In this document: one piece after another, positions 41,426-59,386 of the stretch
Position numbering within the stretch: position 1 is the first letter of the stretch
Layout: each line of letters begins with the position of its first letter
Source of the DNA: Crossiella sp. CA-258035
GTDB lineage: Bacteria > Actinomycetota > Actinomycetes > Mycobacteriales > Pseudonocardiaceae
Reading direction: 5' to 3'
Assembly: GCF_030064675.1 (NCBI RefSeq)
Contig: NZ_CP116413.1
Span: 3,876,001-3,940,000, forward strand
DNA: 64,000 nucleotides
Translations under genes and position numbers: made by a program
The notes under the pieces: model-generated
Databases searched by the model: none
The model's input: the letters and a program-made list of their open reading frames with translations, nothing else
What the model was told of the DNA's origin: nothing

Positions 41426-42682
41426 GTGCCATTGGACCTCGTTGTCATCGGGCTGGGTTATGTCGGACTGCCGCTGGCCAGGCTGGCCGGCGCGACCGGT
41501 TTGGCGGTGGCCGGTTACGACCTGTCCCCCTCGGTGGTGGCCCAGCTCAACCAGGGTCGCCCCACCACCCCTGATGTGGCGCCCGCGGAGGTCTCGGCCC
41601 TGCTCGCGACCGGTTTCCAGGCCACCACCGACCCGGCGGTGATCGCCGCCGCGGACACCGTGGTGATCTGCGTGCCCACCGGCCTGACCAGCGATGGAAG
41701 CCCGGACCCCGGCCCGCTGCGGGCCGCGGCGGAGACGGTGGCGGCCCGGCTGCGGCCCGGCATGCTGGTGGTGCTGGAGTCCACCAGCTACCCGGGCACC
41801 ACAGATGAGGTGCTCCGGCCGATCCTGGAGCGCGGCTCCGGCCTGCGCGCCGGCGAGGACTTCCACCTCGGGTTCTCCCCGGAGCGCATCGACCCCGGCA
41901 ACCGCAGGTACGGGCTGCGGAACACGCCCAAGGTGGTCAGCGGCCACACCCCGTTGTGCGCCAAGCACGTGGCGGCCTTCTACCAGGACCTGGTGGACAC
42001 CGTGGTGATCGCCAGCGGCACCCGCGAGGCGGAGATGGCCAAGCTGCTGGAGAACACCTTCCGGCTGGTGAACATCGCGCTGGTCAACGAGGTCGCGGTG
42101 TTCTGCCGCCAGGCCGGCATCGACGTCTGGGACGTGCTGCACTGCGCGGCCAGCAAGCCCTACGGCTTCGCCGCGTTCACCCCCGGTCCCGGCGTCGGCG
42201 GGCACTGCATCCCGGTGGACCCGCGCTACCTGCTCAGCAAGGCCGAGTCGACCGGCTTCGAGTTCTCGCTGGTCAACGCGGCCTTCCAGGCCAACGAGCG
42301 CATGCCGGACTACGTCGCGGAACGGGCCGCGGACCTGCTGGCCGACTCGGGCGGGCTGGCCGGCGCGGAGGTGCTGCTGCTCGGGGTGACCTACAAGCCC
42401 GATGTGCCCGACCTGCGCGGCTCGCCCGCCTTCGCGGTGGTCGAGGCGCTGCGGCGGCGCGGCGCGGACCTGAGCTACCACGACCCGCACACCAGCCGGT
42501 TTGTCGTCGCCGACGTCCCGGTGCCCAGGGAACTGGACCTGGCGGCGGCGCTGGGCAGGGCCGAGCTGACCATCCTGCTGCAGGACCACCGCTGCTACCA
42601 GCCGAGCAGGCTGGCCCGCGCCGCGCGGCTGCTGTTCGACACCCGTGGCACGGTGCCGGGAGGGAGTGTGGCCCACCTCTGA
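41426..42682 (+). CDS. UDP-sugar 6-dehydrogenase (UDP-glucose/GDP-mannose dehydrogenase family)
   Basis: 418 residues. N-terminal NAD-binding motif VVIGLGYVGLPLARLAG, family core (RLVNIALVNEVAVFCRQAGI), catalytic Cys in GPGVGGHCIPVDP and a C-terminal UDP-binding domain (LLGVTYKPDVPDLRGSPA). It would oxidise the C6 hydroxyl of a UDP-hexose or UDP-HexNAc to the uronic acid; the WecC/WbpA-like subgroup fits the sequence best by eye. GTG 41426 is chosen because TAGGAGCT sits 7 bases upstream; the longer frame is not supported. It may open the following biosynthetic locus, supplying a sugar for the 3-dehydrogenase/aminotransferase enzymes. Confidence 0.88.
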   Translation: MPLDLVVIGLGYVGLPLARLAGATGLAVAGYDLSPSVVAQLNQGRPTTPDVAPAEVSALLATGFQATTDPAVIAAADTVVICVPTGLTSDGSPDPGPLRAAAETVAARLRPGMLVVLESTSYPGTTDEVLRPILERGSGLRAGEDFHLGFSPERIDPGNRRYGLRNTPKVVSGHTPLCAKHVAAFYQDLVDTVVIASGTREAEMAKLLENTFRLVNIALVNEVAVFCRQAGIDVWDVLHCAASKPYGFAAFTPGPGVGGHCIPVDPRYLLSKAESTGFEFSLVNAAFQANERMPDYVAERAADLLADSGGLAGAEVLLLGVTYKPDVPDLRGSPAFAVVEALRRRGADLSYHDPHTSRFVVADVPVPRELDLAAALGRAELTILLQDHRCYQPSRLARAARLLFDTRGTVPGGSVAHL

Positions 42683-42844
42683 CCGACCGTCTGTGACATT
42701 TTCCGCATTCAGCTGACTTTTCACGCAGCCTGGTGGGCCGAGTGCCCTTTCTGATTCGGCTGGCTTAGGTTCGAGTCACCGGCAAGCCTCCGCCTACTTG
42801 CTGTCGCCATTGTTCACCCCTTTTTCGCGAGGAGTCCAACTTCC

Positions 42845-43381
42845 ATGACGACCGCCGTGAAGAACGAGCGCCAGATCCAGCGTTTCAAGAAGTGGGATGT
42901 CAACGGGAACGGCCGCATTGAGCGTTCCGACTACGAGGCGGAGGCGATGCGCATCATCAAGGCCTTCGGCGAGAGCCCGGAGTCACCGCGCGGGCGGGCG
43001 GTGCGGGATGCCTTCATCGGCATGTTCGAGTACCAGGCCAGCGAGGCCGGAGTGGGCCCGAACGGGGCGCTGACCCAGGACCAGTTCCTGGCCGTGAACG
43101 AGAAGCTGATGTTCAAGGACGGTGACGTCGGCTTCAGCAGGCTGCTGCGCCCGACCATCCGGGCCATCGTCGACCTGTGCGACACCGACGGCGACGGTGA
43201 GGTCAACCCGGCCGAGTTCAAGACGTGGCTCAAGGCGATCGGGGTCAGCGGGGCGGACGCGGACTCGGCGTTCCAGGCCATCGACACCAGCGGCAACGGC
43301 TCGCTGTCGGTGGACGAGCTGGTGAACGCGGTCCGCGACTTCCACTACGGCACCCTCGACGTGCCGCTGCTGGGTCGCTGA
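42845..43381 (+). CDS. EF-hand calcium-binding protein, calerythrin-like
   Basis: 178 residues matching the calerythrin/CABD size and layout. Three canonical loops are visible: DVNGNGRIERSD (18-29), DTDGDGEVNPAE and DTSGNGSLSVDE. The region around 66-85 would be a second, degenerate hand. Calerythrins are cytosolic calcium buffers or sensors in Saccharopolyspora and relatives. GAGGAGT precedes ATG 42845. It is a single gene, bounded by a strong bidirectional terminator on the right. Confidence 0.93.
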   Translation: MTTAVKNERQIQRFKKWDVNGNGRIERSDYEAEAMRIIKAFGESPESPRGRAVRDAFIGMFEYQASEAGVGPNGALTQDQFLAVNEKLMFKDGDVGFSRLLRPTIRAIVDLCDTDGDGEVNPAEFKTWLKAIGVSGADADSAFQAIDTSGNGSLSVDELVNAVRDFHYGTLDVPLLGR

Positions 43382-43394
43382 CCCGGCACGGCCG

Positions 43395-43426
43395 GACGCC
43401 CCCGGAAGCCTGGCTCCGGGGGCGTC
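43395..43426. terminator. Bidirectional 12-bp hairpin terminator
   Basis: GACGCCCCCGGA (43395-43406) pairs perfectly with TCCGGGGGCGTC (43415-43426) around an 8-base loop. It lies between the stop codons of the EF-hand gene and the leftward DUF6917-like gene, so it can serve both. Confidence 0.85.
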
Positions 43427-43435
43427 GCCCTGTGC

Positions 43436-43834
43436 TCAGTCGTAGCTGAACCGGACCGCCTGCTCAGGCCGCAGGTCCAGGTCGGCGCCGCTGACCGGGA
43501 CCGGCGCGGTGATGAGGATGTTGTAGTGGTTGGGGAAGTGGCAGGCGTCGAAGCCGAGCACGGTGCCCACGTGGTGGCCGCCGATCCACACCTGGTCGCC
43601 GCGGTCGATCACCCCGGCGTCGGTGATCTCGGCGAAGCCCAGGAACCCGACCCGGTCGATCCGGCTGCCCGGGGCGGTCTCCCGGTGGTCGGTGGTGACC
43701 AGCTCGTGCACCTCGCCGCGCCGCACGCACCGGCTGGCGTGCTCCTCCAGCCGCATCCCGCGCTCGGTGCGCCGGTGCAGCAGCACCTTCACCAGCACTC
43801 CGCCGATGACCCGCTTGGGCCCGTTCTCCTCCAT
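43436..43834 (-). CDS. Small conserved protein, DUF6917-like
   Basis: 132 residues without signal or membrane segment. Conserved-looking stretches are HASRCVRRGEVHELVTT, RVGFLGFAEITDAGVIDRGD and GTVLGFDACHFPNHYNIL. I recall this pattern as DUF6917, a family without known function, but could not check. It is the last gene of the leftward operon; its start overlaps the stop of the Gfo/Idh gene by one base (TGATG). The conserved Cys, His and Asp residues could indicate metal or substrate binding. Confidence 0.65.
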   Translation of the reverse strand: MEENGPKRVIGGVLVKVLLHRRTERGMRLEEHASRCVRRGEVHELVTTDHRETAPGSRIDRVGFLGFAEITDAGVIDRGDQVWIGGHHVGTVLGFDACHFPNHYNILITAPVPVSGADLDLRPEQAVRFSYD

Positions 43835-44751
43835 CAGCTCTCCCGTCCACTCGGCAGGGCCAGTTCCGCCTGGTAGGCGGCGTCCACCAGGGCCAGCGCG
43901 GCGAGCCCGTCGGCTGGGTCGCCGCCGGTGCGCACGAGGCCGGCGAACTCGCGCACCACGCCGAGGTACTCGTGCCACAGCGAGCCCTTGAACTCCGAGT
44001 GCCCGGCGAGCAGGTCCGCGTGCCGCACCTGCCCATCGGCGAGGGTGACCGAGACGTCCTTGACCTCGCCGGGGTAGGACCAGTCCAGCTCCACCTCGGC
44101 CGGGACGCCGCTCGCCGAGCGCAGGCGCAGCAGGGCCTGCCGGTCCACGCCGGTCTCGTCCCGCCGGATGTCGGCGGCGGTCAGCTGGACCGGGCCGAGG
44201 AACTGGCGGACCAGGTCGAAGGCGTTGGGGCCGTTGTCGGCCACGCACCCGCCGCCGCAGCGCTCAGGATCGAGGTACCAGCGGTCCCGGCCGACGTGGT
44301 CCTCGATGCGTTCCAGGTAGCGCACCCGCAGCGCGACCACCGGGGGCAGTGCGGGCAGGCGGTCCAGCAGGGCCCGCGCGGCGGCGTTGTGCCTGCGGTG
44401 GAAGGCGGTGTAGAGCGGCAGTCCGGCGGCGCGGGCCTGCTCGGCCAGCGCGCGCCCGTCGGCCAGGGTGGTGGCCAGCGGTTTCTCCACGCAGACCGGC
44501 AGTCCGGCGGCGAGGGCGTCCCGGCAGACCGGGACGTGCGCGTCGTTGGGCACGGTGACCACCACCGCGTCCAGGCCGGGCCGGTCGATCAGGTCGAGGT
44601 GGCTGGTGTGGCAGGAGACCCGGCCGCGGTGCGGGGCAAGGGTTTCCGGGTCGTGGTCGCACACCGCGGCCAGCTCCACCCCGTCCACCTCAGCCAGCGC
44701 GGCCAGGTAGAACCGGGAGATCACGCCGAGTCCGATGACGCCGATCCTCAT
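43834..44751 (-). CDS. Gfo/Idh/MocA oxidoreductase (second copy)
   Basis: 305 residues with an N-terminal Rossmann fold (IGVIGLGVISRFYLAAL), the family EKP motif (CVEKPLATT) and a C-terminal substrate domain with the HRRHNAAARALLDRLP segment. Members oxidise or reduce sugar, cyclitol or pyranose hydroxyls. With the aminotransferases in the opposite operon it may act as a 3-dehydrogenase in aminosugar formation, as WlbA or NtdC do. Overlaps both neighbours. Confidence 0.88.
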   Translation of the reverse strand: MRIGVIGLGVISRFYLAALAEVDGVELAAVCDHDPETLAPHRGRVSCHTSHLDLIDRPGLDAVVVTVPNDAHVPVCRDALAAGLPVCVEKPLATTLADGRALAEQARAAGLPLYTAFHRRHNAAARALLDRLPALPPVVALRVRYLERIEDHVGRDRWYLDPERCGGGCVADNGPNAFDLVRQFLGPVQLTAADIRRDETGVDRQALLRLRSASGVPAEVELDWSYPGEVKDVSVTLADGQVRHADLLAGHSEFKGSLWHEYLGVVREFAGLVRTGGDPADGLAALALVDAAYQAELALPSGRES

Positions 44752-45839
44752 GCCAGCCGCCCGATGCCCAGTTCGGCGGCGACCTCGTCGAGCTCGGCGT
44801 GCAGCGCGGCGGAGACCGGCACGCCCTCGCGCAGGTAGCCCGCGGCGCGTTCGCCTTCGTGCCAGCCGGGATAGCGCACGCCGTCCTCCGTTGTGGACGG
44901 ACAGTTCAGCAGCGCGCCGAAGAGCTCACCGGCCTGCCGCTGGAAGGACCTGTCGGGCCGCAGCGCGGCGGGGGAGATGGCGATCGCGGCGAAACCGATG
45001 TCGTCGTCCCGGCCGCGGTCGCCTCCGGCGGCGGCCCGGCTGGGACCGGTGCCCGCGCCGGAGAGCAGCGCGCCCAGCACCTCGACCGCGAGCCCGAGCC
45101 CGAAGCCCTTGAACGCGCCGGTTTCCGGGTCGCCGCCGAGCCAGCGCAGCCGCGCCTCGCCCCGGTCGAAGGCGGCCGGGTCGGTCACCGGTTGACCGTC
45201 CACATCGGACAGCCAACCGGGCGGGATCGGCTCCCCGGCGCGGGCGGCGGCCCTGATGCGCCCGGTGGGCACCACGGTGGTGCTCATGTCGAGCACGAAC
45301 GGGTGGCCCGAGCCCGCGGGGGCGGCCACGCTGAGCGGGTTGGTGCCGAGCATGGGCACCGCGCCGCCCGGTGGGTGCGCGATGCGCTGGCGGCCGCAGT
45401 TCCCGGCGAGCAGGCCGATCATGCCGTGCCGGGCGGCCAGCGCGGTGTGGTGGCCCGCGCAGCCGAAGTGGGTGGCGCCGCGCACCGACACCAGGCCGAT
45501 GCCGTGCACGCGGGCCCGGTTGACCGCCTCGGTCATCGCCTCGCTCGCCTGCCAGAGGCCGAGCGCGCGGCGGGCGTCGACCAGCGCGGCCGCGCCGAGG
45601 TCGGTGAGCACCACGGGTTCGGCGGCCGGGTCGGCCCGGTTCTCCCGCAGCAGCGGCAGGTAGAGGCGGCTGAGGTTGGCCAGGCCGTGCGAGGACATGC
45701 CGGTGAGGTCGCCGTGGCAGAGCGCGGCGGCCGAGGCGCGGGCCCGGCCCGGTGGCAGGCCGAGGGCGCGGAACACCTCGGTGGTCCAGTCAAGGATGTC
45801 CATTGTGGACACTCGGGTGGCCAGGCCGTTGACGGTCAT
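44748..45839 (-). CDS. Malate/L-lactate dehydrogenase-family (Ldh_2) oxidoreductase
   Basis: 363 residues of the NAD(P)-dependent Ldh_2 family: N-terminal ALCHGDLTGMSSHGLANLSR with the conserved SHG, VRGATHFGCAGHHTALA, and GTNPLSVAAPAG with VLDMSTTVVPTGRIRAAA. Relatives act on malate, sulfolactate, ureidoglycolate, 2,3-diketogulonate or cyclic imino acids, so the substrate is open. ATG 45839 overlaps the M20 stop; an internal GTG (STMDILDW) is an alternative start. The start region has a TCCACAATGGAC near-palindrome. Confidence 0.87.
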   Translation of the reverse strand: MTVNGLATRVSTMDILDWTTEVFRALGLPPGRARASAAALCHGDLTGMSSHGLANLSRLYLPLLRENRADPAAEPVVLTDLGAAALVDARRALGLWQASEAMTEAVNRARVHGIGLVSVRGATHFGCAGHHTALAARHGMIGLLAGNCGRQRIAHPPGGAVPMLGTNPLSVAAPAGSGHPFVLDMSTTVVPTGRIRAAARAGEPIPPGWLSDVDGQPVTDPAAFDRGEARLRWLGGDPETGAFKGFGLGLAVEVLGALLSGAGTGPSRAAAGGDRGRDDDIGFAAIAISPAALRPDRSFQRQAGELFGALLNCPSTTEDGVRYPGWHEGERAAGYLREGVPVSAALHAELDEVAAELGIGRLA

Positions 45840-47092
45840 GGGGCTCCGATCTGGTGGTCGAAGGCGAGCAGCAGGCCGCACACGGTGGCGGCGAAGGCCT
45901 CCAGGTCGGCCAGGTCGGCGAACTCGCCGGTGGCGTGCGCGTTGTTGCCGTCCAGGGTGCCGGGGCCGAGCACCACGGTGGCGGTGTCCGGGACCCCGGC
46001 CAGCCAGATCGCGTCGCAGGTGAACGCGGGGCGATCCTCGGGCCAGCGCGGGATGCCCAGTCCGGTCAACAGGTTCTCCGCCCACGGGTCGGCGCCGGTG
46101 AGCGCGGGCAGGCCGCGTTTGTGCCAGTCCAGGCTGGTGATGGCCGCGGCGTCGGCGGCGGTGCGGGCGAACTGGCGGCTGCCGGCGAAGCGGCGGCGGA
46201 AGGCGATGAGTCCTTCGTGGACGGCCGAGGTGACCTCCTGCGCCAGCCTGGTGGCCGAGGCCGTTTCGGCGTAGGAGAGGTTGAGCAGCAGGCTGCCGGA
46301 GCCGTAGACCCGGTTGTGCAGCCGCCCGGTGTGCAGCCCGGCCACGCACACCTCGCCGTCGGTGTGCCGGGAGTCCAGTGCCCCGGCCAGGTGCTGGGCC
46401 AGGAAGCCGAGCAGCACGGTGGCGTTGTGCCCGGCGTAGGGGGTGTCGTCGATGGCGTCCTGGCCGTCCACCCGCACGCAGGCGGTCATCGCGGCGGTGG
46501 CGCGGGGCAGGTAGTGGCCGCCGGTGGGCTCGCAGAAGACGTTGAGCCGTCCCACATGTCCGGCTTCCACCAGTGGCCGGGTGCCGATGGTGCCGAGCGC
46601 GCCGCCCTCCTCGCCGGAGACCGCCTGCACCAGCACGCCGATGTCCGGGCGCAGTTGTGGCGCGGCGGCGCGGATTCCGGCCAGCAGCGCGACCGCGGGT
46701 CCCTTGGCGTCGATCGCGCCGCGGCCGGTGAAGCGGTGGCCGTCGAAGCCCACCGGTTCGGCCCCGGCCACGGTGTCCAGGTGCACGTTGAACATCACCG
46801 TCCTGGCCCTGGGCAGTTGTGGGCCCAGCCGCAGGACCAGGTTCGGTTGGCAGGCCAGGAAGTCCGGGTCGGCCGCGGCGGCGCGGACCGCGCTGGGCAC
46901 CTCCGGTCCGCGCGCGGCCGAGGGGTCGGCCGGGGCGTGGTGCACGGTGTCCATGCCGAACTCGGCGGCCGCCGCCGCGTAGGCCCGCTGCGCCTCCCAC
47001 AACCGGGGCGGGGTGACGTCGAGCTCCAAGGGCCCCGCGGTGGGCAGTTCCAGCAGGTCCAGCAGGAGCCGGTGGTCAGCCGGTCGCAACAC
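45836..47092 (-). CDS. M20-family metallopeptidase/deacylase
   Basis: 418 residues resembling ArgE/DapE/ACY1. Metal-binding residues are visible as His in FNVHLDTVAG, bridging Asp in GAIDAKG, the Glu pair in SGEEGGALG and a later ligand in VFCEPTGG. It would hydrolyse an N-acyl amide or a small peptide bond. In a biosynthetic operon it may remove an acyl protecting group from an amino acid or aminosugar. The GTG start at 47092 lies inside the end of the TIM-barrel gene (17-base overlap). Confidence 0.87.
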   Translation of the reverse strand: MLRPADHRLLLDLLELPTAGPLELDVTPPRLWEAQRAYAAAAAEFGMDTVHHAPADPSAARGPEVPSAVRAAAADPDFLACQPNLVLRLGPQLPRARTVMFNVHLDTVAGAEPVGFDGHRFTGRGAIDAKGPAVALLAGIRAAAPQLRPDIGVLVQAVSGEEGGALGTIGTRPLVEAGHVGRLNVFCEPTGGHYLPRATAAMTACVRVDGQDAIDDTPYAGHNATVLLGFLAQHLAGALDSRHTDGEVCVAGLHTGRLHNRVYGSGSLLLNLSYAETASATRLAQEVTSAVHEGLIAFRRRFAGSRQFARTAADAAAITSLDWHKRGLPALTGADPWAENLLTGLGIPRWPEDRPAFTCDAIWLAGVPDTATVVLGPGTLDGNNAHATGEFADLADLEAFAATVCGLLLAFDHQIGAP

Positions 47093-47909
47093 GGCGACTC
47101 ATCTCCTGGCTCAGCAAGGCTTCCAGGGCCAGTCCGGCCTGGTGGTAGGACTCGGCCGCCTCGCCGCTGTGCTGGAGGCCCTCGTGCGGTCGCAGTGCCA
47201 GGTGGGGTTCCAGGGACAACGCGCCGGTGTAGCCCTGGTCGAGCAGCAGCCGCAGGCAGTCGGCGACCCTGGCCTGGCCCGCGCCCGGCACGGTGTAGAC
47301 CGGCCCGGCCACCGCGTCCTTGACGTGCACGTGCGCCACGTGCCCGGCGATCCGGGTGAGCAGGTCGTAGGCCTCGTACCCGGCGGAGATGCCGTTTCCG
47401 GTGTCGAACAACAGTTTCAGCGCGGGGGAGCCCACTTCCTCCAGCAGTCGCAGCGTGTTCGCCGCGCTGGCGCCCGCCCAGCCGGAGCAGTTCTCGTGCA
47501 GCAGCGTGATCCCGGCGGCCCCGGCCAGCTCGGCCAGCGCGGCGATCCGGTCGATCACCCGGCGCGCCCACTCGGCCTCGGGCAGGCCGTCGTTGGGGTA
47601 GGACATGATCCGCACGTACCGGCAGCGCAGCCGGTGGCAGTGCTCGATGAGCCGGTCCAGCTCGGCCAGGTCGGCGGCCAGCGGGGTGCTGATCGGGCGG
47701 GACCAGTTGCCGATGCGCGAGGCCAGGCACACCACCTCCGTCCCGGCCAGCTCCAGCTGATCCGGGCGCAGGTCGGCCAGCCACACGCCGTCCACGGTGC
47801 GCAGCTCGATCGCCGACCAGCCCAGCCGCCGGACCGCGGCCAGCTGACCGGCCAGGTCCGGCGCGGCCTCGTCGCCGATTCCGGTGCGGCGCAACGGTTC
47901 AGCCGACAC
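47076..47909 (-). CDS. Sugar phosphate isomerase/epimerase (AP endonuclease 2-type TIM barrel)
   Basis: 277 residues of the xylose-isomerase-like TIM barrel: LRRLGWSAIELRTVDGVW near the N-terminus, CRYVRIMSYPNDG, the metal-ligand Glu in LLHENCSGWAG, LLFDTGNG, the His in VHVKDA and a C-terminal Glu in LSLEPHL. Such enzymes isomerise or epimerise small keto sugars or dehydrate inosose. The substrate is not readable, but a keto-sugar made by the Gfo/Idh enzymes is plausible. It overlaps the gene before it by 11 bases. Confidence 0.82.
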   Translation of the reverse strand: MSAEPLRRTGIGDEAAPDLAGQLAAVRRLGWSAIELRTVDGVWLADLRPDQLELAGTEVVCLASRIGNWSRPISTPLAADLAELDRLIEHCHRLRCRYVRIMSYPNDGLPEAEWARRVIDRIAALAELAGAAGITLLHENCSGWAGASAANTLRLLEEVGSPALKLLFDTGNGISAGYEAYDLLTRIAGHVAHVHVKDAVAGPVYTVPGAGQARVADCLRLLLDQGYTGALSLEPHLALRPHEGLQHSGEAAESYHQAGLALEALLSQEMSRRVATG

Positions 47910-48945
47910 GGAGCGGCGACTCGGCGGTGCGGGCGGGCGGGACCAGCGCGGGCTCTGGCTCGGCGTAGCCGGCGTGCGCCTTGGCCTCGGCGAGCAGGCG
48001 CACCACCTCGCACTGCAGCACCAGCGAGGTGGTCGAGGGCGCCTGTCGCTGGTAGCGGCGATAGGTGTGCAGCAGGAAGGTGGTCAACGAGTCGTCGGGG
48101 AAGCTCAGGTTGGTCGTCCGCTCCGGGGTGCGCACGGCCAGCTGGGCGTAGTGGTCGTCCGCGCTCACCGGGTAGTGCCCGACCGCCTCGCCGCCGTCGA
48201 AGGTCAGCGTGATCCGGCGTTCCCGCACCGGGGAGACCAGCGAGGAGGTGATGTCGGTGCGCACCCCGTTGCCGTGCCGCAGGGTGAGCCGGGCTCCGCC
48301 GAGACCGGGCCGGGTGCCCGCCTCGCTGGTCAGGTCGAACGCGTTGGCCTCCACCAGTTCCGCCCGCCCTGCCAGGCGCAGTGCGACCCCGACCGAGTGC
48401 GGCAGCTCCACGTCGAAGGCGGTGGGGTGCCCGCTGGAGAGCAGTGAGCGGCGGAACCGGGACTTGTGCTGGGCCATGCTGATCCGGCGCAGCGCGCCGA
48501 GCGCGCCGCCGCGCACCAGGTCCTCCAGGCGCTGGGTGAGCGCGCTGGACTGCCACTGCGCGACCACCACCAGATCCAGCCAGCGGCGTTGCCGGAGCTC
48601 GGAAAGGCGTGCCAGGTCGGCGAGGCTGATGGCCAGCGGCTTCTCCACGACGATCTTGCGGAAGCCGTGGTCGGCGAGTTCGGCGAGCACGGCAGGCCGG
48701 GTGGTCGGCGGGGTGCACAGGTGCACCACAGTGCGGATCGGCTCCAGCTGGGCGGCGGCCTCGGCGATGCTGCTGGTGAGCACCACCCCGGCCGGTGCGG
48801 TCTCCGGTGCGGAGGTGTCGCAGGCGAGCACCGGTCCAGGGTCGAACAGTCGTGGATGGGCGCCGGACTCGCGGGCCCGCAGCAGGATCGGCAGGTGCAG
48901 CTCCGCACCGGCCCGGCCCAGCCCCACGACAAACGTCTGCAACAT
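47899..48945 (-). CDS. Gfo/Idh/MocA oxidoreductase (first gene of leftward operon)
   Basis: 348 residues. Rossmann start QTFVVGLGRAGAELHLPILL, then the EKP motif in VVEKPLAISLADL, and a C-terminal domain beginning around GALGALRRISMAQHKSRFRR. Differs clearly from the second Gfo/Idh protein of the same operon, so a recent duplication is unlikely. The ATG 48945 has only a weak GGGTAG upstream. First gene of a six-gene run all overlapping by 1-17 bases. Confidence 0.87.
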   Translation of the reverse strand: MLQTFVVGLGRAGAELHLPILLRARESGAHPRLFDPGPVLACDTSAPETAPAGVVLTSSIAEAAAQLEPIRTVVHLCTPPTTRPAVLAELADHGFRKIVVEKPLAISLADLARLSELRQRRWLDLVVVAQWQSSALTQRLEDLVRGGALGALRRISMAQHKSRFRRSLLSSGHPTAFDVELPHSVGVALRLAGRAELVEANAFDLTSEAGTRPGLGGARLTLRHGNGVRTDITSSLVSPVRERRITLTFDGGEAVGHYPVSADDHYAQLAVRTPERTTNLSFPDDSLTTFLLHTYRRYQRQAPSTTSLVLQCEVVRLLAEAKAHAGYAEPEPALVPPARTAESPLRVG

Positions 48946-48971
48946 GTTCTACCCGTTCACCCCGAAACGGC

Positions 48972-49034: not shown

Positions 49035-49211
49035 AATTTCCGGTGCGGTTAGCTCTTCGCACATTCACGCTCCGGCGAACGGCTGTCAAGGCGGGAAATG
49101 TATCCGGTACCAGAAGAGGTGAACCTGTCTCCGAAAGTGCGCTGGGCCCTCGACAAGCCAGGCGTGATTCCTACGCTCGGTCGTGAGCATGAACACTGAG
49201 AGTAGCCGGAG

Positions 49212-51543: not shown

Positions 51544-52482
51544 ATGACCACCGCGGCGCCCAGGGCCGAGGGCCGGATCCGCACCTACGCGCGACTGGCC
51601 AAGCTGGACATCTTCGACTACTACCTGAGCCTGCCGCTGGTGCTGAGCCTGCTGCCGCTCGGGCTGCTCACCGATCCGCGGATCCTGGTGCTGCTGGGCC
51701 TGTTCCTGCTCGGCGAGGTGGTGCTGATGGCCTCGCTGGTGGCCTTCGACGACCTCACCGGGTACCGCGACGGCAGCGACGCGATCAACTACGGCCCGGA
51801 CGCCCCGGCCCGCCGGAAACTGCGGAAACCGTTGGTGGCCGGCACGTTGACCCCCGAGCAGGTGCGCCGGTTCGCCTGGGCCGCCTTCGCCACCGGGGCG
51901 CTGCTGTGGGCCGCGGCGGTGGGGCTGGCGCCGGAGCCGCCGCTGTGGGCGCTGGCGCTCACCGCACTGATGCTGGTGCTGTACCCGCAGTACTCCTACG
52001 GTCTCAAGCTCAGCTACATCGGCCTGCAGGAGTGCTACCTGGCCGCGATCGGCTGGGTGCTGGTGCTGGCCCCGTACGGACTGGCCGGGGGTGAGCTGAG
52101 CGGGCTGGTGCTGGTGCAGGCGGCGCTGTTCGGGCTGGGGCCGCTGCTGTTCGGGGTGTACTCCAACACCAACGACGTGCGCGGCGACCGGGCGGTCGGC
52201 CGGATCACGGTGGCCACCATGACCTCGGCGGCGGGCAACCGGCGGTTCGTGCTCGCGCTGACCCTGGCCGAGATGGCGCTCATCGTCGGCGCGCCGCTGC
52301 TCGGGCTCGTCCCGTGGTGGTTCGCCTTCGCGCTGGCGCCCACGCTGATCCTGCGCGGCTGGCAGTTCACCCTGGGCTTCCGGCACGGCGACATCCTGCG
52401 GGCGCGCCGGATGGGCATCCACGTGCACCGGATCACCACCGTGCTGCTGATCGTGGTCAACCTGGTGGTGCGGCAGTCATGA
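51544..52482 (+). CDS. UbiA-family prenyltransferase
   Basis: 312 residues with about eight membrane helices and the two Asp-rich loops of the family: FDDLTGYRDGSD (first motif variant) and NTNDVRGDRAVGR. It would transfer a polyprenyl or related group from a diphosphate donor, with Mg2+, to an acceptor in the membrane. I start at ATG 51544 because AAGGAG (51532-51537) lies just upstream; ATG 51529 would place that site inside the coding sequence. Family members include aromatic prenyltransferases and decaprenylphosphoryl-phosphoribose synthase. The acceptor is unknown. Confidence 0.85.
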   Translation: MTTAAPRAEGRIRTYARLAKLDIFDYYLSLPLVLSLLPLGLLTDPRILVLLGLFLLGEVVLMASLVAFDDLTGYRDGSDAINYGPDAPARRKLRKPLVAGTLTPEQVRRFAWAAFATGALLWAAAVGLAPEPPLWALALTALMLVLYPQYSYGLKLSYIGLQECYLAAIGWVLVLAPYGLAGGELSGLVLVQAALFGLGPLLFGVYSNTNDVRGDRAVGRITVATMTSAAGNRRFVLALTLAEMALIVGAPLLGLVPWWFAFALAPTLILRGWQFTLGFRHGDILRARRMGIHVHRITTVLLIVVNLVVRQS

Positions 52483-53783
52483 GCGGTGACCTGGACGTGG
52501 CGATCGTCGGGGCCGGGATCGGCGGACTGGCCCTGGCGCACACCCTCCGGCCGACCGGCCGCTCGGTCCGGGTGTTCGAGGCGGCCGAGCAGGTCGGCGG
52601 GCGGATGACCTCGGTGCGCGAGGACGGCTACACCATCGACACCGGGGCCGAGCAGATCTCCGGCCGCGGCTACCCCCAGACCTGGCGGCTGCTGGCCGAA
52701 CTGGGCGTGGATCCCGTTGCCGTGCCGAAGGTCCGGGCCGGGGTCGGGGTGTGGCGGAACGGACGGGCGCACCCCGGCGTGGCGGATCCGCGGGGACTGC
52801 TCACCGGGGCGGGACTGTCCTGGCGGGCCCGGCTGGACCTGGTGCGCCTGATGGCCACCGGCGCGAGCCGCGCGGGCGCGGACACCGTGGCCGAGTTCGC
52901 CGGCCGCTACCACCCCGACATCGGCGAGTACCTGCTGCAACCGGTCACCGGCGGGTTCTTCGGCTGGCGCCCGGAACACTCCGCGGTGGCCCCGTTCCTG
53001 GACCTGCTGCGCAGGGTCGGCCCGGCCAGTGGATGGCGCACCTACCGCGACGGCATGGACACCCTGGCCCGCCTGCTGGCCGAAGGACTCGACGTGGTCA
53101 CCGGCTGCCCGGTCCGGAAAGTGGTGGCCCGCGACGGGTTCGCCACGCTCACCACCGACGCGGGCCCGGTGACCGCGCGCACCGTGGTGCTGTGCCTGCC
53201 CGCTCCGCAGGCCCGCGCCCTCTACGCCAACCCGCCCGCGCGCGAACTGCCCTACCTGACGGCCAGCACCTACACGCCGATGCTCAAGGTCAGCTGCCTG
53301 CTCGACCGGCCGCTGGCCCCGCGCCGCGCCGGCCGGTTGTACTGCCTGCTGCTGCCCGAGCGGGAGGACGGGGTGCTCGGCGGCATCCTCGTCGACCACG
53401 CCAAACACCCGGACCGCGCGCCACCCGGCAGGGGACTGCTGACCCTGCTCGCCGCGCCCCGCGCCATCCCCGGCCTGCTGGACGCGCCAGAGGAGGAGGT
53501 GGTCGGCACACTGACCGGGGCCGCGGCGAGGTACGTGCCAGGACTGCGCGCGGCCACCATCTCCGCGCACAGCCACCGGTTCCGGCACGGACTGCCCGAG
53601 GCCACCCCGCTCGCGCTGCGGCTGCAACCGGCGTTCCTGCGCAGGCCGCCCAGCCCGGTGGAGTACGCGGGCGACTGGATCCTGGCCCGCCCCAACAGCG
53701 AGGCCGCCATCGAGAGCGCACTGCTGGCCGCACAACGAATCCAGGCCGCCTGCCCCCGCACCCGCCGAAGGGAGACCGCATGA
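52479..53783 (+). CDS. FAD-dependent amine-oxidase/protoporphyrinogen-oxidase-like protein
   Basis: 434 residues. The N-terminus has the FAD dinucleotide motif DVAIVGAGIGGLALAHTL and the GG motif (EQVGGRMTS). The C-terminus ends with the second FAD block PVEYAGDWILARPNSEAAIE, which is typical of this superfamily. It likely oxidises or desaturates a substrate related to the UbiA product, given the direct coupling. Relatives include carotenoid desaturases, protoporphyrinogen oxidases and amine oxidases, so the reaction is not fixed. Confidence 0.85.
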   Translation: MSGDLDVAIVGAGIGGLALAHTLRPTGRSVRVFEAAEQVGGRMTSVREDGYTIDTGAEQISGRGYPQTWRLLAELGVDPVAVPKVRAGVGVWRNGRAHPGVADPRGLLTGAGLSWRARLDLVRLMATGASRAGADTVAEFAGRYHPDIGEYLLQPVTGGFFGWRPEHSAVAPFLDLLRRVGPASGWRTYRDGMDTLARLLAEGLDVVTGCPVRKVVARDGFATLTTDAGPVTARTVVLCLPAPQARALYANPPARELPYLTASTYTPMLKVSCLLDRPLAPRRAGRLYCLLLPEREDGVLGGILVDHAKHPDRAPPGRGLLTLLAAPRAIPGLLDAPEEEVVGTLTGAAARYVPGLRAATISAHSHRFRHGLPEATPLALRLQPAFLRRPPSPVEYAGDWILARPNSEAAIESALLAAQRIQAACPRTRRRETA

Positions 53784-55348
53784 GACCGCACGACATGGGC
53801 GTGCTGTTCGAGGAGTGCGCCGAGCGTGGCTCCCGCACCCTGGTGCACCTGGACCGCCCCTTCGACATCGCCCCCGGCGTCACCACCTACGACCTGCCGG
53901 GACTGGCCGAACTGGTGCGCGCGGCGGCGGGCTGGCTGGCCGCGGCCGGGGTCCGGCGCGGCGAGCGGGTGGTCATCCTCAAGGACAACCACTGGGACTA
54001 CGACCTGCTGGCCTGCGCGGCCATCCGGCTCGGCGCGGTGCCCGCCCTGCTCTCCGGCCAGCTGCCGCCGGAGTCGGTGGAGGTGCTGCTCAAACGCCTC
54101 GACCCGGCCGTGCTGGTCACCACCGGCCGGCACCTGGCCACCGGGGACCTGCCCGCGCTGGCCCGCCGCACGCTCACCCTGGACCACGGCCCGGCCGGGG
54201 TGCTCACCTTGGACGACGTCCGGGGCCACCCCGCACCCGCCCCGTGCCGCCGCGCGGACGACGAGCCGCTGGTGATCAACCACACCTCGGGCACCACCGG
54301 GTTGCCGAAGCTGGTCACCCACTCCACCGCGACGATCATCGGGCGGCTGGCCCGGTTGGAGTCGATCCGTTGGCCGGTGCTCGGCACCCGCCGCAGCGAC
54401 ACCGTGGCCAGCGCCAGCTCCTTCGCCCACGGCCGCACCTTCTGCTGGACGGCCAGCGTGCTCTGCCTTGCCCCGCAACGGATCCTCATTCTCAGCGGCG
54501 AGCAGGACCAGGCGCTGCTGGCGGCACATCCGCCGACCACCCTGGAGGCGCTGCCGTCCTGGTTCGTCCGCCACCAGGGGCTCGCCCGTGAGCCGGACAA
54601 CCCGTTCCGGCGGGTCCGGCTCTACGTCAGCACCTACGACGCCATGCACCCACCCACCGTGCGCGCCTACCTGCACGCCTCCGCGCGCAAACGTCCACTG
54701 TGGATGCAGGGCTGGGGGCAGACCGAGACCGGACCGCTCACCTTCCGCTTCCTCACCAGGAAAGCACTGGCCCGGCGGGACGATCCGGAGCCGACCACCC
54801 GCAACCTCGGCCGTCCGCTGCCGGGACGAACCCGGCTGCGGGTGGTCGATCCCCGCACCTTCGCCCCGCTGCCGCCCGGCCGCACCGGACTGGTGCTGGC
54901 CCGCACCAGGGCCCGCTGTCTGGACTACGTCGGCGAGCCGGACCGCTTCGCCGCCAAGGACACCGACGGCTGGTGGAACACCGGCGACCTCGGCCAGCGC
55001 ACCCGCACCGGCGCGATCCTGTTCCTGGACCGCGAGGTCGACCAGACCCCGGAGCTCAGCTGCGTGCGCACCGAGGACCTGCTGGAGGAACGGCTGCCGG
55101 AGGTGCTGGAGGCCGTGGTGCTCGGCGTGCGCGGACAGCCGCCGATCCCGGTGCTGGTCACCGCGAACGGCACCCTGTCCGAACTCGCCTGGCGACGGGC
55201 CATCCGCGACCTGCCTGCCATGGCCGGCCCGGTCCCGCTCACCTGGGCGGAGGTGCCGCGCACCGGCACCGGCAAGGTCCGGCGGCAGGAGCTGCTCGAG
55301 CGACTCCTCGGCAGGGCGGAACGGCACGGCAGCGGGCGCTGGACATGA
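53780..55348 (+). CDS. Adenylate-forming enzyme (class I AMP ligase) with degenerate A8 region
   Basis: 522 residues. It has the P-loop A3 motif INHTSGTTGLPKLVTHS, A5 (GWGQTETGP) and A7 (WWNTGDLGQ), then the hinge where LFLDREVDQTPE replaces the usual GRxDD and the C-terminal Lys in GTGKVRRQELL. It would activate a carboxylate as acyl-AMP and pass it to CoA or an amine. The weak A8 suggests either an unusual acceptor or impaired rotation. No carrier-protein gene lies nearby. Confidence 0.84.
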   Translation: MRPHDMGVLFEECAERGSRTLVHLDRPFDIAPGVTTYDLPGLAELVRAAAGWLAAAGVRRGERVVILKDNHWDYDLLACAAIRLGAVPALLSGQLPPESVEVLLKRLDPAVLVTTGRHLATGDLPALARRTLTLDHGPAGVLTLDDVRGHPAPAPCRRADDEPLVINHTSGTTGLPKLVTHSTATIIGRLARLESIRWPVLGTRRSDTVASASSFAHGRTFCWTASVLCLAPQRILILSGEQDQALLAAHPPTTLEALPSWFVRHQGLAREPDNPFRRVRLYVSTYDAMHPPTVRAYLHASARKRPLWMQGWGQTETGPLTFRFLTRKALARRDDPEPTTRNLGRPLPGRTRLRVVDPRTFAPLPPGRTGLVLARTRARCLDYVGEPDRFAAKDTDGWWNTGDLGQRTRTGAILFLDREVDQTPELSCVRTEDLLEERLPEVLEAVVLGVRGQPPIPVLVTANGTLSELAWRRAIRDLPAMAGPVPLTWAEVPRTGTGKVRRQELLERLLGRAERHGSGRWT

Positions 55349-56127
55349 GCGCGCCCGCCTTCTCCGACAACACCAGCGCGCACGCCGCCGACCAGCACCG
55401 CTGCCTGGCCGAGGCCTACGACCCCATCACCCGCGCCCGGCTGCTCCAGGCCGGGGTGGGTGGCGGCTGGCGCTGCCTGGAGGTGGGCGCGGGCAACGGC
55501 AGCGTGGCGAGCTGGCTGGCCGAGCGGGTCGGGCCCGGCGGCTGGGTTCTGGCCACCGACCTCAACCCCCGGCACCTGGTCACCAGGCCCCGGCTTTCCG
55601 TGCTGCGCCACGACATCCGGCACGATCCGCTGCCCGAGGCCGCCTTCGACCTGGTGCACGCCCGCCAGGTGCTGCCGCTGCTGCCGGAGCGGATCCCGGT
55701 GCTGCACCGGATGATCGGCGCGCTGCGCCCCGGCGGCCTGCTGCAACTCGACGACCTAGACATCGGCTACGGTCCCGCCCTGCTCACCCCGGACCGGCGC
55801 GGAGCCCAGCTGTACCAACGCTTCCTGGCCGCCAAGGCCGAGGCGATGGCCGCCACCGGCGGCGACGGCTGCTGGGGCAGCCGGGCCGCCGAGGCGATGC
55901 GGGCCGCCGGGCTGGTCGAGGTCGACCCGGTCCCGCACCTGACCCAGTGGCATCCGGGCTCACCGGGGGTGCGACTCCAGATCAACCACACCCACCGATT
56001 GCGAGAACTCTTGCTGGCGGCCGGAATGACCGAGCAGGACCTGACCGAACTCCGTGCCCTGCTGACCCATCCCGGGTTCCGCGCGGCCTCCCCGGTGTTC
56101 TACTCGGTGCAGGGGAGGCGGCCGTGA
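55345..56127 (+). CDS. SAM-dependent methyltransferase
   Basis: 260 residues of the class I fold: AdoMet-binding LEVGAGNGSVASWLAERVG, acidic VLATDLNPRHL, and FDLVHARQVLPLLP. The rest is compatible with a small-molecule O- or N-methyltransferase. It begins on the ATGA of the ligase. The methyl acceptor is not evident; the operon context suggests the same final product. Confidence 0.88.
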   Translation: MSAPAFSDNTSAHAADQHRCLAEAYDPITRARLLQAGVGGGWRCLEVGAGNGSVASWLAERVGPGGWVLATDLNPRHLVTRPRLSVLRHDIRHDPLPEAAFDLVHARQVLPLLPERIPVLHRMIGALRPGGLLQLDDLDIGYGPALLTPDRRGAQLYQRFLAAKAEAMAATGGDGCWGSRAAEAMRAAGLVEVDPVPHLTQWHPGSPGVRLQINHTHRLRELLLAAGMTEQDLTELRALLTHPGFRAASPVFYSVQGRRP

Positions 56128-57803
56128 GCCCGCTCCGGCAGGCCACCGAGGCCGCGGCCGCACGCATCCTGGCCTGGCGTCAGCTGCACGCCATGGGTGT
56201 GCGGGACCAGGAGGCCGAGTGCGTGCTGGACTGGGCGGGACCGGTGGCCGCGCCGCTGGTGGACGAGACCACCGTGCAGGCCGCCTGCGGCATCGCGCAC
56301 GTGCACGGCCGCCGCTTCGGCAGGCCGACCCTGCTCAACGTCGACTACGCCACCGTGGTCGCGGGCGTGCTCGCCACCCAGGGGGTGCTGGCCATGCTGG
56401 TGGCCCGGCGCCGGGGGCTGTCGCTGCGCCGGGTGGAGACCTCGGTGGCGCAGGCCGCGTTGCTGTCGGTCTCGCAGTACCTGGCCGCCAGCACCACGGC
56501 CGACGACTGGGCCGAACCCCTGCTGCCCGGCGGGCCGCCGTTCGTCTCCGCCGACGGCGCGCGGTTCGAGCTGGAGACCTTCGAAGCCGAGCGCTGGCAC
56601 CGGTTCTGGACCGTGCTGGCCGCGGACCCGGCCGCCGTCCGGGCCGGCTGGCGGCCGTTCCAGCACCGCTACGCCACCGCCACCTGCCCACTGCCCGAAC
56701 CGCTGTTCCGGGCCGCCAACGGCGTCTCCCTCGGCGCGATCGAGGCCGCCGCCGACCTGGCCGGGGTCAGCGTGCTGCGGTTGAGCCCGGCCGAGCGCTC
56801 CCTGGCCGACCTGCCGCCCTGGCAGCTCACCCCACTGGGCCCGGCCGACCGGTCGGCACGGCCGGTGGCCCGGCTGGCACCGCTGGACGGGCTGGTGGTG
56901 ATCGAGGCCGGGCGACGGTTGCAGGGTCCACTGGCCGGGCACCTGCTGCGGTTGCTGGGCGCCACCGTGATCAGGGTCGAACCGCCGGGCGGGGACCTGC
57001 TGCGCGGCATGCCGCCGATGGCCGGGGACACCTCGGCCCGGTTCCGCGCGATCAACGACGGCAAACAGGTGGTGCGCCTGGACCTGCACTCCCCGGCCGG
57101 ACGAGACGGGCTGCTGGCGCTGGCCGCTGGGGCGGATGTGTTCCTGCACAACTGGGCGCCCGGCAAGGCCGCCCAGCTGCGCCTGGACGCCGAGGACCTG
57201 GTCAGGGTGAAACCGGGCCTGGTCTACGCCTGGGCCTCGGGCTGGGGCGCGGAACTGGGTGCCCGGCCGCCGCTGGGCACCGACTTCATGGTGCAGGCCT
57301 ACAGCGGGCTGGCCGCCGAGGTCCGGCCGCCGAGGGAACCGGCGACCACCTCGCTGATGACGCTCACCGACATCCTGGGCGGCCTGGTGTGCGCCCAGGG
57401 CGTGCTGGCCGGGCTGCTGGCCCGCTTCCGCGAGGGCAGGGGCCGCCGGGTCGACTCCTCGCTGCTGTCCGCGGCCGCGGTGCTGCGCAGGCTGCCGCGC
57501 ACCCCGCGCCGCGAACCACTGTCCACAGTGGACGGCTGGCTGGCCGTCTCGGCCGATCCCCAGCACGGCCCGGCGGCGGCCAGGGCCTTCGAACTGCCCC
57601 ACCCGCCCGGCTACGCCCAGCTCGTGCTGCGCTGCGCCCGCAGGCCCACCGCCTTCTGGCTGGACCGGCTGGCCGCGCTCGGGGTGCCGGCCACCGCGGT
57701 GTGCACCGATCTGGCCACGCTGTCCGGCGACCCCAGGTTCGAGCAGGTGCTGCGGCAAGCCGACGGCTACCTCGCCCCCACCGCGCCCTGGACGTTCACA
57801 TGA
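56124..57803 (+). CDS. CoA-transferase family III (CaiB/BaiF) protein
   Basis: 559 residues, longer than the usual 380-430. The C-terminal two-thirds begins LDGLVVIEAGRRLQGPLAGH and contains LLGATVIRVEPPGGD, FLHNWAPGKA and VKPGLVYAWASGWG, then the GTDFMVQAYSG block, all typical of CaiB. About 240 N-terminal residues resemble part of another CoA-transferase half, so this may be a fused, partly degenerate tandem. AGGGGAGG precedes GTG 56124. Together with the two ligases it points to CoA-thioester chemistry in the pathway. It contains a CTGTCCACAGTGGAC motif (57519). Confidence 0.85.
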   Translation: MSPLRQATEAAAARILAWRQLHAMGVRDQEAECVLDWAGPVAAPLVDETTVQAACGIAHVHGRRFGRPTLLNVDYATVVAGVLATQGVLAMLVARRRGLSLRRVETSVAQAALLSVSQYLAASTTADDWAEPLLPGGPPFVSADGARFELETFEAERWHRFWTVLAADPAAVRAGWRPFQHRYATATCPLPEPLFRAANGVSLGAIEAAADLAGVSVLRLSPAERSLADLPPWQLTPLGPADRSARPVARLAPLDGLVVIEAGRRLQGPLAGHLLRLLGATVIRVEPPGGDLLRGMPPMAGDTSARFRAINDGKQVVRLDLHSPAGRDGLLALAAGADVFLHNWAPGKAAQLRLDAEDLVRVKPGLVYAWASGWGAELGARPPLGTDFMVQAYSGLAAEVRPPREPATTSLMTLTDILGGLVCAQGVLAGLLARFREGRGRRVDSSLLSAAAVLRRLPRTPRREPLSTVDGWLAVSADPQHGPAAARAFELPHPPGYAQLVLRCARRPTAFWLDRLAALGVPATAVCTDLATLSGDPRFEQVLRQADGYLAPTAPWTFT

Positions 57804-59386
57804 GCTGGACCTCGAACAACGGCATCGTGCTGCGCGACCTGGTGCCGCAGGCGCTGCGCAGGCAGTGGGTCCGCGAAGGATGGTGCCCCGACCAGGACAT
57901 CCACACCGCCTTCACCCACCAGGTCCAAGCCCACCCGGACCGGCCCGCGGTCGTCGACGAGCAGGGCTGCCTGGACTACCGGTCCCTGGACCGCGAGGTC
58001 CGCCGGATCGCCACCGCGCTGCGCGCCGCCGGACTGGGCCCCCGGGACATCATCGGCATCCACCTGCCGAACGGCCGGTCGGCCGTCGCCGCCGAACTGG
58101 CCGTGGCCGCACTCGGCGCGGTGTCCCTGCCCTACCCGTACGGCCGTGGCAGGCGCGACTCGCTCAGCCTGCTCGGCCGCGCCCGCGCCGCCGCGCTGAT
58201 CACCCTCGCCCGTGCCGACCTGCCCACGCCGTGCCCGGTGTTCACCTTCGGCCCCGCCGCCGGGGACGCGGTCTCCCTCGACCGGGCCCCGGTGCCCGCG
58301 GAGCCCTGGTCCCCGCCGCCGGTGGACCCGGACGGCCCGGCCCGCATCCTGGTCACCTCCGGCACCGAGGCCGAGCCGAAGATGATCGCCTACTCGCACA
58401 ACGCCTTCCTCGGTGGCCGGGCGAGCTACCTCCGAGCCCTGCACGACGGCGACGCCCCGATGCGCAACCTGCTGCTGGCCCCGCTGGCCTCCGCCTACGG
58501 CTCCCTCGGCGTCCCGGTCACCCTGGCCGCGCTCGGCGGAACCCTTCAGCTGCGCCGCGGGTTCGACCCGGCCGAGGTCCTGCGCGCGATCACCGAGCAC
58601 CGGCCGACGCACCTGTTCGCCGTGCCGGTCATGCTGCGCCGCCTGCTCGACCACCCGCGGTCCGCCACCGAGGACACCTCCTCGCTGCGCGCGGTGGTCT
58701 CCAGCTCGGCCGCGTTCCCGCTCACCCTGCTCGACGGCTGTCGCGACCGCCTGTGCGCCAACGTGATCACCGTCTACGGCTCGGCCGACGGCGTCAACTG
58801 CCACACCGCCCGCACCGGCGCCACGCCGGCCACCGGCACCGGCCTGCCCGACCCCGCGGTCGCCCAGATCCAGATCCGCACCCCGGCCGGCCGCGTCCTG
58901 CCGCGCGGCGAGGACGGCGAGATCTGCGCCCTCGGCCCGATGACACCCCTGTGCTACGTGGCCGCGCCCGAGCTGGACGCGGCCTACCGGCCGGGCGGCT
59001 GGGTCCGCACCGGCGACCTGGGCCACCTGGACCACCACGGGCGGTTGCACGTCTCCGGCCGGACCAAGCAGGTGGTCAACCGCGGCGGCTTCAACATCAG
59101 CCCCGCCGAGGTCGAACACCACCTGGACACCCATCCGGACGTGGCCGAGGTGGCCTGCGTGCCGGTGCCCGACCCGGAACTGGGCGAACGACTGGCCGCC
59201 TGCCTCGCGCAGCGGCCGGGCAGCGCCCCGCTGACCCTGCCGGTGCTGACCAGGTACCTGGAGGAGGAGCGGGGGCTGGAACGCCGGAAGCTGCCCGAAC
59301 TGCTGGTGGTGCTGCCCGAGCTGCCGCTGGGACCGACCGGCAAGGTGTGCAGGCACACGCTGACCGCCCTCGCCGCCGACCGCTGA
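57800..59386 (+). CDS. Acyl-CoA synthetase-type AMP ligase (second)
   Basis: 528 residues: A3 motif ILVTSGTEAEPKMIAYSH (the TEAEPK form instead of TTGxPK), A5 VYGSADGVNC, A7 RTGDLGHLD, a normal A8 (SGRTKQVVNRGGFNISPAEV) and Lys in LGPTGKVCRHT. With complete A8 and A10 motifs it looks like a working acyl-CoA synthetase, in contrast to the other ligase. Probably activates a carboxylic acid that CaiB then moves between acids. Last gene of the operon. Confidence 0.87.
   Translation: MSWTSNNGIVLRDLVPQALRRQWVREGWCPDQDIHTAFTHQVQAHPDRPAVVDEQGCLDYRSLDREVRRIATALRAAGLGPRDIIGIHLPNGRSAVAAELAVAALGAVSLPYPYGRGRRDSLSLLGRARAAALITLARADLPTPCPVFTFGPAAGDAVSLDRAPVPAEPWSPPPVDPDGPARILVTSGTEAEPKMIAYSHNAFLGGRASYLRALHDGDAPMRNLLLAPLASAYGSLGVPVTLAALGGTLQLRRGFDPAEVLRAITEHRPTHLFAVPVMLRRLLDHPRSATEDTSSLRAVVSSSAAFPLTLLDGCRDRLCANVITVYGSADGVNCHTARTGATPATGTGLPDPAVAQIQIRTPAGRVLPRGEDGEICALGPMTPLCYVAAPELDAAYRPGGWVRTGDLGHLDHHGRLHVSGRTKQVVNRGGFNISPAEVEHHLDTHPDVAEVACVPVPDPELGERLAACLAQRPGSAPLTLPVLTRYLEEERGLERRKLPELLVVLPELPLGPTGKVCRHTLTALAADR

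Follow-up and report, generated by a model that had tools for sequence, protein, structure and literature searches.

Can a block of genes that lacks any class-defining core enzyme be a natural-product pathway, and if so, what would it build? The question is raised by positions 41426–59386 of a 64,000-nucleotide stretch of the genome of Crossiella sp. CA-258035 (NCBI RefSeq assembly GCF_030064675.1, contig NZ_CP116413.1, positions 3,876,001 to 3,940,000, forward strand; this whole stretch is hereafter "the window"). An earlier reading of the letters and translated open reading frames (hereafter the sequence-only reading) had proposed that a biosynthetic cluster lacking any canonical core enzyme lies here, and the recurrence of the gene set, the sharpness of its borders, and the conservation of catalytic motifs described below make this a well-supported case of a self-contained, conserved cluster of that kind. 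As to its chemistry, we give a probability of about 55% to a mobile, two-module specialized-metabolite cluster, in which a first module would yield an amino-carboxylic acid, here called X, and a second would prenylate and modify it.

Gene calling by codon usage, with domains assigned from Pfam and NCBIfam profiles, placed 16 genes in this interval (Table 1), namely g32 and g33 on the plus strand, g34–g39 on the minus strand, and g40–g47 on the plus strand. The coordinates and enzyme classes agree with the previously proposed UDP-sugar dehydrogenase, six minus-strand and eight plus-strand genes, although that list of 15 omitted the EF-hand gene (42845–43381, plus strand), one of its minus-strand genes is a DUF6917 gene, and only two of its acyl-activating enzymes are AMP-binding ligases, the third being a CaiB-type CoA-transferase. 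The description of the operons as "fully overlapping" holds for the genes within them, which are coupled by 4-base overlaps at 7/7 junctions of the plus operon (49212–59386) and by overlaps at 4/5 junctions of the minus operon (43436–48945; under the start adopted for this analysis, g38 and g39 lie 4 bases apart), but not for the divergent operons themselves, which lie 266 bases apart. As had been claimed, no Pfam family for polyketide synthases, non-ribosomal peptide synthetase condensation domains, ribosomally synthesized and post-translationally modified peptides (RiPPs), or class I or II terpene cyclases was found in the 16 genes at an E-value of 0.001, RiPP precursors shorter than 50 codons not being covered by the search. 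The UbiA gene (g42) matched PF01040 with 64.1 bits against a cut-off of 34.2, and the ligase g44 also matched TIGR01733, an amino-acid adenylation model, though below its cut-off (91 of 317 bits). Chance open reading frames in GC-rich DNA were considered and ruled out by codon usage and by conservation across genera.

We scanned named-species genomes with the g42 protein and retained the best 80 of 118 encoding places. The complete 16-gene set was present in 39 of these 80 loci and at least 14 of the genes in 53, all complete loci being among the 68 that were full-length. Order and orientation were identical in 36 of the 39 complete loci, the other three differing in the position of the EF-hand gene, which is the opposite of the scatter in relatives that the sequence-only reading had named as evidence against itself. 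Since the same set and order recur in dozens of loci, the arrangement is not due to chance. Complete sets were found in nine named genera (Streptomyces, Saccharopolyspora, Lentzea, Saccharothrix, Amycolatopsis, Umezawaea, Kutzneria, Crossiella, and one record named Nocardia), and a short UbiA hit lay on a 3 kb contig labeled Melainabacteria, a label that may be misassigned. When 1393 predicted proteins, including those of the window, were clustered, the families of g32–g47 were the 15 largest by number of loci (49 to 81 loci each, with g40 and g41 merged into one family), and the next family reached only 11 loci. A larger cluster is thus ruled out, as no family outside g32–g47 occurs in more than 11/80 loci: the flanking genes g27–g31, g48, and g49 are found in 0–1 of the 80, and the commonest extra families are a carboxymuconolactone-decarboxylase-like protein (11 loci) and a second methyltransferase (10 loci). 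Relatives on plasmids were limited to five records with weak hits to g43.

The borders of the cluster are visible as an empty site. In a genome labeled as the same species (G004), the UbiA and M20 genes are missing, and relatives of g31 and g48, 97% and 96% identical, respectively, are adjacent; the alignment to this genome ends at window position 41161 and restarts at 59518, with 18,356 bases absent from it. This difference may reflect either a gain here or a loss there. Insertion driven by repeats or a tRNA was considered and rejected, with no tRNA in the window and no direct repeat of at least 8 bp between two 160-base border stretches. Within the genus, UbiA and the M20 gene occur in 3/5 genomes, including that of the window, and in the other two of these three (G001 and G003) the cluster lies about 200–215 kb from the beta-galactosidase gene, and therefore at a different site. 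More broadly, DUF6917 was found in 19/298 genomes of the order and in 1/396 drawn from the phylum. Such patchy presence is typical of the dispensable specialized-metabolite type to which the cluster probably belongs, and a complete 16-gene pathway that has no class-defining enzyme and is missing in its entirety from another genome of the species is of the kind that genome mining can overlook.

For 12 of the 16 families (all but g32, g34, g36, and g43), we counted catalytic motifs on gene calls that had passed clustering and found them close to invariant. Besides the counts given in Table 1, the DegT lysine is present in 73/73 sequences of g40 and 74/75 of g41 (one gap), the early metal ligands of the M20 protein in 69/69 and its late His in 67/69 (two gaps), and the EKP motif of g35 in 59/59; in the TIM barrel, Glu and Asp are found in 61/61, the first and second His of HVH in 61/61 and 58/61, and the last Glu in 60/61, and the ligase motifs are nearly invariant. 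The DNGPN of g35 was retained even in five sequences from other contexts, which are included in its count, its best solved relative having DLGPH. Across 16 aligned DUF6917 sequences, the stretch C-H-x-P-N-H-Y-N is invariant; DUF6917 adjoins or is fused to g35 (window 43834–44751; L127–L131) and might complete the g35 active site.

Because some loci deviate, gene content is largely but not strictly constant. A g35 search in eight genomes with such loci recovered a close relative in 8/8 (57–63%). Of six further stretches, five were examined one gene at a time and all six with tblastn. In rearranged loci of two Kitasatospora and two Streptomyces genomes, most of the absent genes adjoin the first locus; locus L043 already contained g35, and nothing was added to it; and g38 was found in L180 by tblastn. 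In a fifth genome (L080 and L182), the sugar genes and the UbiA trio sit on separate contigs. Streptomyces macrolidinus RY43-2 carries an extra trio of UbiA, AMP ligase, and flavoenzyme (L077:9914-14017) in addition to a full cluster, L032, which is where its g35 relative lies.

The gene set falls into a sugar module of nine genes (g32 and g34–g41) and a prenyl module comprising UbiA, the flavoenzyme, the ligases, the methyltransferase, and the CaiB-like protein, and the former also occurs without the latter. Among the 18 DUF6917 genomes other than that of the window, ten show sugar genes with UbiA, three from one genus have g32, g34–g38, g40, and g41 without UbiA, and two have only g38, g37, and a g35–g34 fusion in the stretches read; for the others, one contig ends beyond g34–g37, and at two loci, L133 and the weak hit L132, the other genes are not seen. 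In the UbiA-less genus, 5/160 genomes are DUF6917-positive, and all five carry the sugar module. Here (L127–L129, L156–L158, and L191–L194), g32, fused g35–g34, g36, g37, g38, g40, and g41 are shared with the window, together with a g39-like gene (32–35%), but the prenyl module is replaced in 5/5 clusters by the tryptophan biosynthesis genes TrpF, TrpC, TrpB, and TrpA, two ligases of the L-amino-acid-ligase type, a third ATP-grasp protein, a major facilitator superfamily (MFS) transporter, and a B3/4 domain protein (identities from Pfam on one representative, the others matched by similarity). No g42 relative was found genome-wide in any of these five genomes. The fusions of g38 to g37 (in two genomes read) and of g35 to g34 tie steps of the first module together. 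Upstream of one of these Trp-linked clusters, Pfam identified pentose-phosphate genes. In the window's own genome, a second TrpB (56%; G000:C1:3383039-3384157) adjoins a relative of TrpA, apart from the TrpC/TrpB/TrpA locus at 7.23 Mb.

Several features of the Trp genes bear on what X could be. Other copies of TrpB (58–59%) and TrpD (44–45%) exist elsewhere in the three Trp-linked genomes tested, and the cluster copies are therefore extra. Two of the five clusters encode a full-length TrpD and a third shows a 97-residue match of 42%, and TrpE did not appear in the cluster surroundings that were read, a genome-wide search for it not having been made. In the two cluster TrpD proteins (L128:4142-5212 and L129:12881-13948), KAGNR stands where four of five comparison TrpD have KHGNR and the fifth has KHGGR, and NLSGPL replaces N[LF]LGPL. 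The His of KHGNR lies, we assume, at the anthranilate site, and the substitutions suggest an altered acceptor site.

Two genomes (G208 and G018) connect the Trp-linked and prenyl versions of the module. Both carry a g42 relative (59% and 56%) elsewhere than an operon of TIM barrel, M20, and Gfo/Idh–DUF6917 fusion genes (L130:11395-14863 and L131:10429-13885). Their prenyl clusters (L195 and L196) contain g32, g33, g36, and g39–g45; g34, g35, and g37 are absent from them, g35 and g37 not having been searched genome-wide there, and, as for g38, one cluster lacks it and the other has a partial match of 38%. The trio apparently supplies the activities that the prenyl cluster of the same genome lacks. 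It has the same g35–g34 fusion as the Trp-linked version, to which it is 50–63% identical, compared to 42–58% for the prenyl versions compared, and the Trp-linked version scores higher in 6/6 comparisons. The two versions of the module thus seem interchangeable and, on the simplest reading, catalyze the same reactions, an argument for a common intermediate. Our best reading is that both cluster types would use one sugar-derived amino-carboxylic acid, which UbiA would prenylate in the window's type.

In the two-module pathway proposed here, g32 would oxidize a UDP-(N-acetyl)hexose to the uronic acid, g35 with g34 would make a keto-sugar, and g40 and g41 would carry out two transaminations, while g38, g37, g36, and g39 would contribute isomerization, deacylation, and further redox steps leading to X. 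That both DegT proteins have WbpE as their best solved relative speaks for this route. UbiA would then prenylate X with a prenyl diphosphate that we assume comes from the host, since no prenyl diphosphate synthase is found among the 16 genes. The prenylated X would be oxidized by g43 and methylated by g45, with the AMP ligases g44 and g47 and the CaiB-like g46 activating or conjugating carboxyl groups, and the EF-hand protein g33 is a candidate accessory. We prefer an amino acid-like X to an intact aminocyclitol because the Trp-linked cluster joins the module to ortho-amino-acid enzymes and peptide ligases. No description of the cluster was found in the open-licence literature, and nothing on it in that on prenylated pyrroles, among the matches listed. 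The terms UbiA, prenyltransferase, and aminotransferase do not appear in the main text of a Crossiella paper (PMC9415966), whose Table 2 gives only clusters exclusive to two strains, so that the paper neither reports nor excludes the cluster of the window.

A number of observations weigh against this pathway or its unity. No NCBIfam equivalog cut-off was reached by any of the 16 genes among the matches listed, the keto-sugar step is uncertain as g35 has Asn for the usual Gfo/Idh His, and UbiA could be a cyclase. Outside the complete loci, no g32 came to light in the Kitasatospora stretches, L043, or L185, and no g46 or g47 in L027, L043, and L082 or in six loci of another genus (g2) of the window's family, and the recurring set includes no transporter or regulator. 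The complementation argument rests on two genomes. In favor of the pathway, the distance matrices of the two modules correlate with r = 0.974 in the 39 complete loci, a value reached in 0/2000 permutations, but one from which shared species history was not removed.

Can X be specified further? UbiA prenylates 4-hydroxybenzoate, and a sharper form of the two-module reading, which we hold as a tentative possibility, would make X an acid resembling anthranilate, of the ortho-amino (hetero)aromatic or enamine type. In one lineage, dedicated Trp enzymes (in some clusters including TrpD) would turn it into a tryptophan analog, which the amino-acid ligases would incorporate into an exported peptide; in the window's lineage, UbiA would prenylate it. 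The association of the module with TrpF/TrpC/TrpB/TrpA, ligases, MFS exporter, and B3/4 protein in all five DUF6917-positive genomes argues for it, as do the redundancy of these Trp genes, the missing TrpE among the genes read, and the two TrpD motif changes. Yet full-length TrpD is present in just two of the five clusters, so that the remaining ones would depend on a host TrpD able to use X; the catalytic residues of TrpA, TrpB, and TrpC look ordinary, and the extra genes could simply supply tryptophan. Moreover, the conversion of a six-carbon uronic acid into an aromatic one is itself a proposal. A doubtful but more far-reaching version would have the nine-gene module convert a UDP-hexose into an anthranilate surrogate, a heteroaromatic derived from the sugar (e.g. 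an aminopyrrole- or aminopyridine-carboxylate), bypassing the shikimate pathway, with one lineage passing it to duplicated tryptophan enzymes to make a tryptophan mimic in an exported peptide, from which the B3/4 protein would give self-protection, and the other prenylating the surrogate by UbiA. If true, aromatic building blocks would be reached by a new path, and two unrelated natural-product classes would share a detachable cassette for their precursor, with parts that can be exchanged. In either form, the recurrence of the sugar module with tryptophan enzymes and peptide ligases provides a concrete, testable hypothesis on the intermediate.

The other readings differ in what UbiA and the sugar genes would be for. 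The sequence-only reading had suggested a prenylated or acylated amino sugar or aminocyclitol, and a product that keeps the sugar ring, such as a diamino-uronic acid with a lipid added by UbiA or the ligases, is a guess we do not favor and think unlikely. Its dehydrogenase, Gfo/Idh protein, and WbpE-like aminotransferases do fit the order of the UDP-diamino-uronic acid pathway, and tryptophan could, in the Trp-linked clusters, be a separate block ligated to a sugar amino acid. Against this, no cyclitol synthase or dehydroquinate (DHQ)-synthase-like family and no glycosyltransferase or acetyltransferase family was identified among the 16 genes with Pfam or NCBIfam, the M20, Ldh_2, and TIM-barrel enzymes would be superfluous for a UDP-diamino sugar, the usual His of g35 is missing, and the pairing of the module with Trp enzymes and amino-acid ligases points to an amino-carboxylic acid. 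The lack of transporter, regulator, and resistance genes in the recurring set would suit a membrane lipid, quinone-like cofactor, or pigment built by UbiA, the desaturase-like flavoenzyme, and the CoA ligases, rather than an exported antibiotic, but the presence of the cluster in only three of the five genomes of the genus, and not in the same-species genome, is more typical of dispensable specialized metabolism and makes such a product improbable. Least probable in our view is a cyclized terpenoid decorated by the sugar module, with UbiA as its terpene cyclase. Both UbiA Asp-rich motifs are present, as they are in UbiA-type cyclases, but nothing in the evidence separates a cyclase from a prenyltransferase, and the sole solved relative found is UBIAD1 (E-value 0.0099).

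Table 1. Features of the cluster, its empty site, and its immediate neighbors (window coordinates)
Feature	Position	Strand	Basis
Stretch absent from G004, 3 bp there instead	41162..59517		blastn of L115 against the window and reading of the junctions
Left neighbor, LuxR-type response regulator, outside cluster	40529..41173	+	97% identical at empty site
g32, nucleotide-sugar dehydrogenase, UDP-glucose/UDP-N-acetylhexosamine (HexNAc) 6-dehydrogenase type	41426..42682	+	TIGR03026 above cut-off, 399 bits; 52/80 loci
g33, EF-hand calcium-binding protein, cluster member	42845..43381	+	Pfam EF-hand; 54/80 loci
g34, DUF6917 protein	43436..43834	-	PF21891, 191.7 bits; fused to g35 homologs elsewhere
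g35, Gfo/Idh/MocA-type sugar dehydrogenase, DNGPN for usual DxGxH	43834..44751	-	PF01408; motif 59/59
g36, Ldh_2 family dehydrogenase, malate/lactate type	44748..45839	-	PF02615, 319.9 bits
g37, M20 metal-dependent deacylase/peptidase	45836..47092	-	PF01546; metal-ligand motifs conserved
g38, xylose-isomerase-like triosephosphate isomerase (TIM) barrel (isomerase/epimerase/dehydratase class)	47076..47894	-	PF01261
g39, divergent Gfo/Idh/MocA dehydrogenase	47899..48945	-	PF01408, weak; EKP 71/71, later His 71/71
g40, DegT aminotransferase	49212..50411	+	PF01041; best-scoring solved relative WbpE
g41, second DegT aminotransferase	50408..51532	+	PF01041; best-scoring solved relative WbpE
g42, UbiA-type membrane prenyltransferase, both Asp-rich motifs	51529..52482	+	PF01040; Asp of both motifs 81/81
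g43, FAD amine-oxidase/desaturase-like flavoenzyme	52479..53783	+	PF01593
g44, AMP-binding acyl/aryl ligase	53780..55348	+	PF00501; motifs
g45, S-adenosylmethionine-dependent methyltransferase	55345..56127	+	PF08241
g46, CaiB-like family III CoA-transferase, two matched stretches	56124..57803	+	PF02515; GTD-motif Asp 58/58
g47, acyl-CoA ligase, AMP-binding with C-terminal domain	57800..59386	+	PF00501 and PF13193
Right neighbor, LacZ-type beta-galactosidase, outside cluster	59708..62554	+	96% identical at empty site

To the left of the cluster, window positions 31523–38504 encode an FCD regulator, a 2-hydroxyacid dehydrogenase, a TIM barrel, an SBD_N/NBD_C kinase, a solute-binding protein, and a DctM transporter, and are a probable acid-sugar utilization operon. 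These catabolic neighbors were considered as part of the cluster and rejected, as g27, the one gene of them that was queried, is present in 0/80 loci.

How, then, does the cluster relate to known systems? With aminocyclitol or aminoglycoside and 3-amino-5-hydroxybenzoate (AHBA) clusters it shares DegT aminotransferases and Gfo/Idh dehydrogenases, but differs in having no cyclitol-synthase or DHQ-synthase-like gene, and g40 scores 149 bits with AHBA synthase compared to 256 bits with WbpE. WbpA, WbpB, and WbpE belong to the UDP-diamino-uronic acid pathway of the Pseudomonas O antigen, and the likeness to this pathway extends to the UDP-sugar 6-dehydrogenase, the Gfo/Idh dehydrogenase, and the WbpE-like DegT aminotransferases. 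Of these, g32 belongs to the TIGR03026 subfamily but reaches 223.9 of the 459 bits of the UDP-HexNAc 6-dehydrogenase equivalog PRK11064, and g35, without the DxGxH of the Gfo/Idh 3-dehydrogenases and its usual His, 61.8 of the 450 bits of NF040723. The window also has two DegT genes along with Ldh_2, M20, TIM-barrel, and DUF6917 genes, and no acetyltransferase or glycosyltransferase family. Finally, UbiA-dependent meroterpenoid pathways likewise combine a UbiA protein bearing both Asp motifs with acid-activating ligases in one operon; the 16 genes of the window differ in including no polyketide synthase or shikimate-type aromatic precursor gene, and the prenyl acceptor seems to come from the sugar module.

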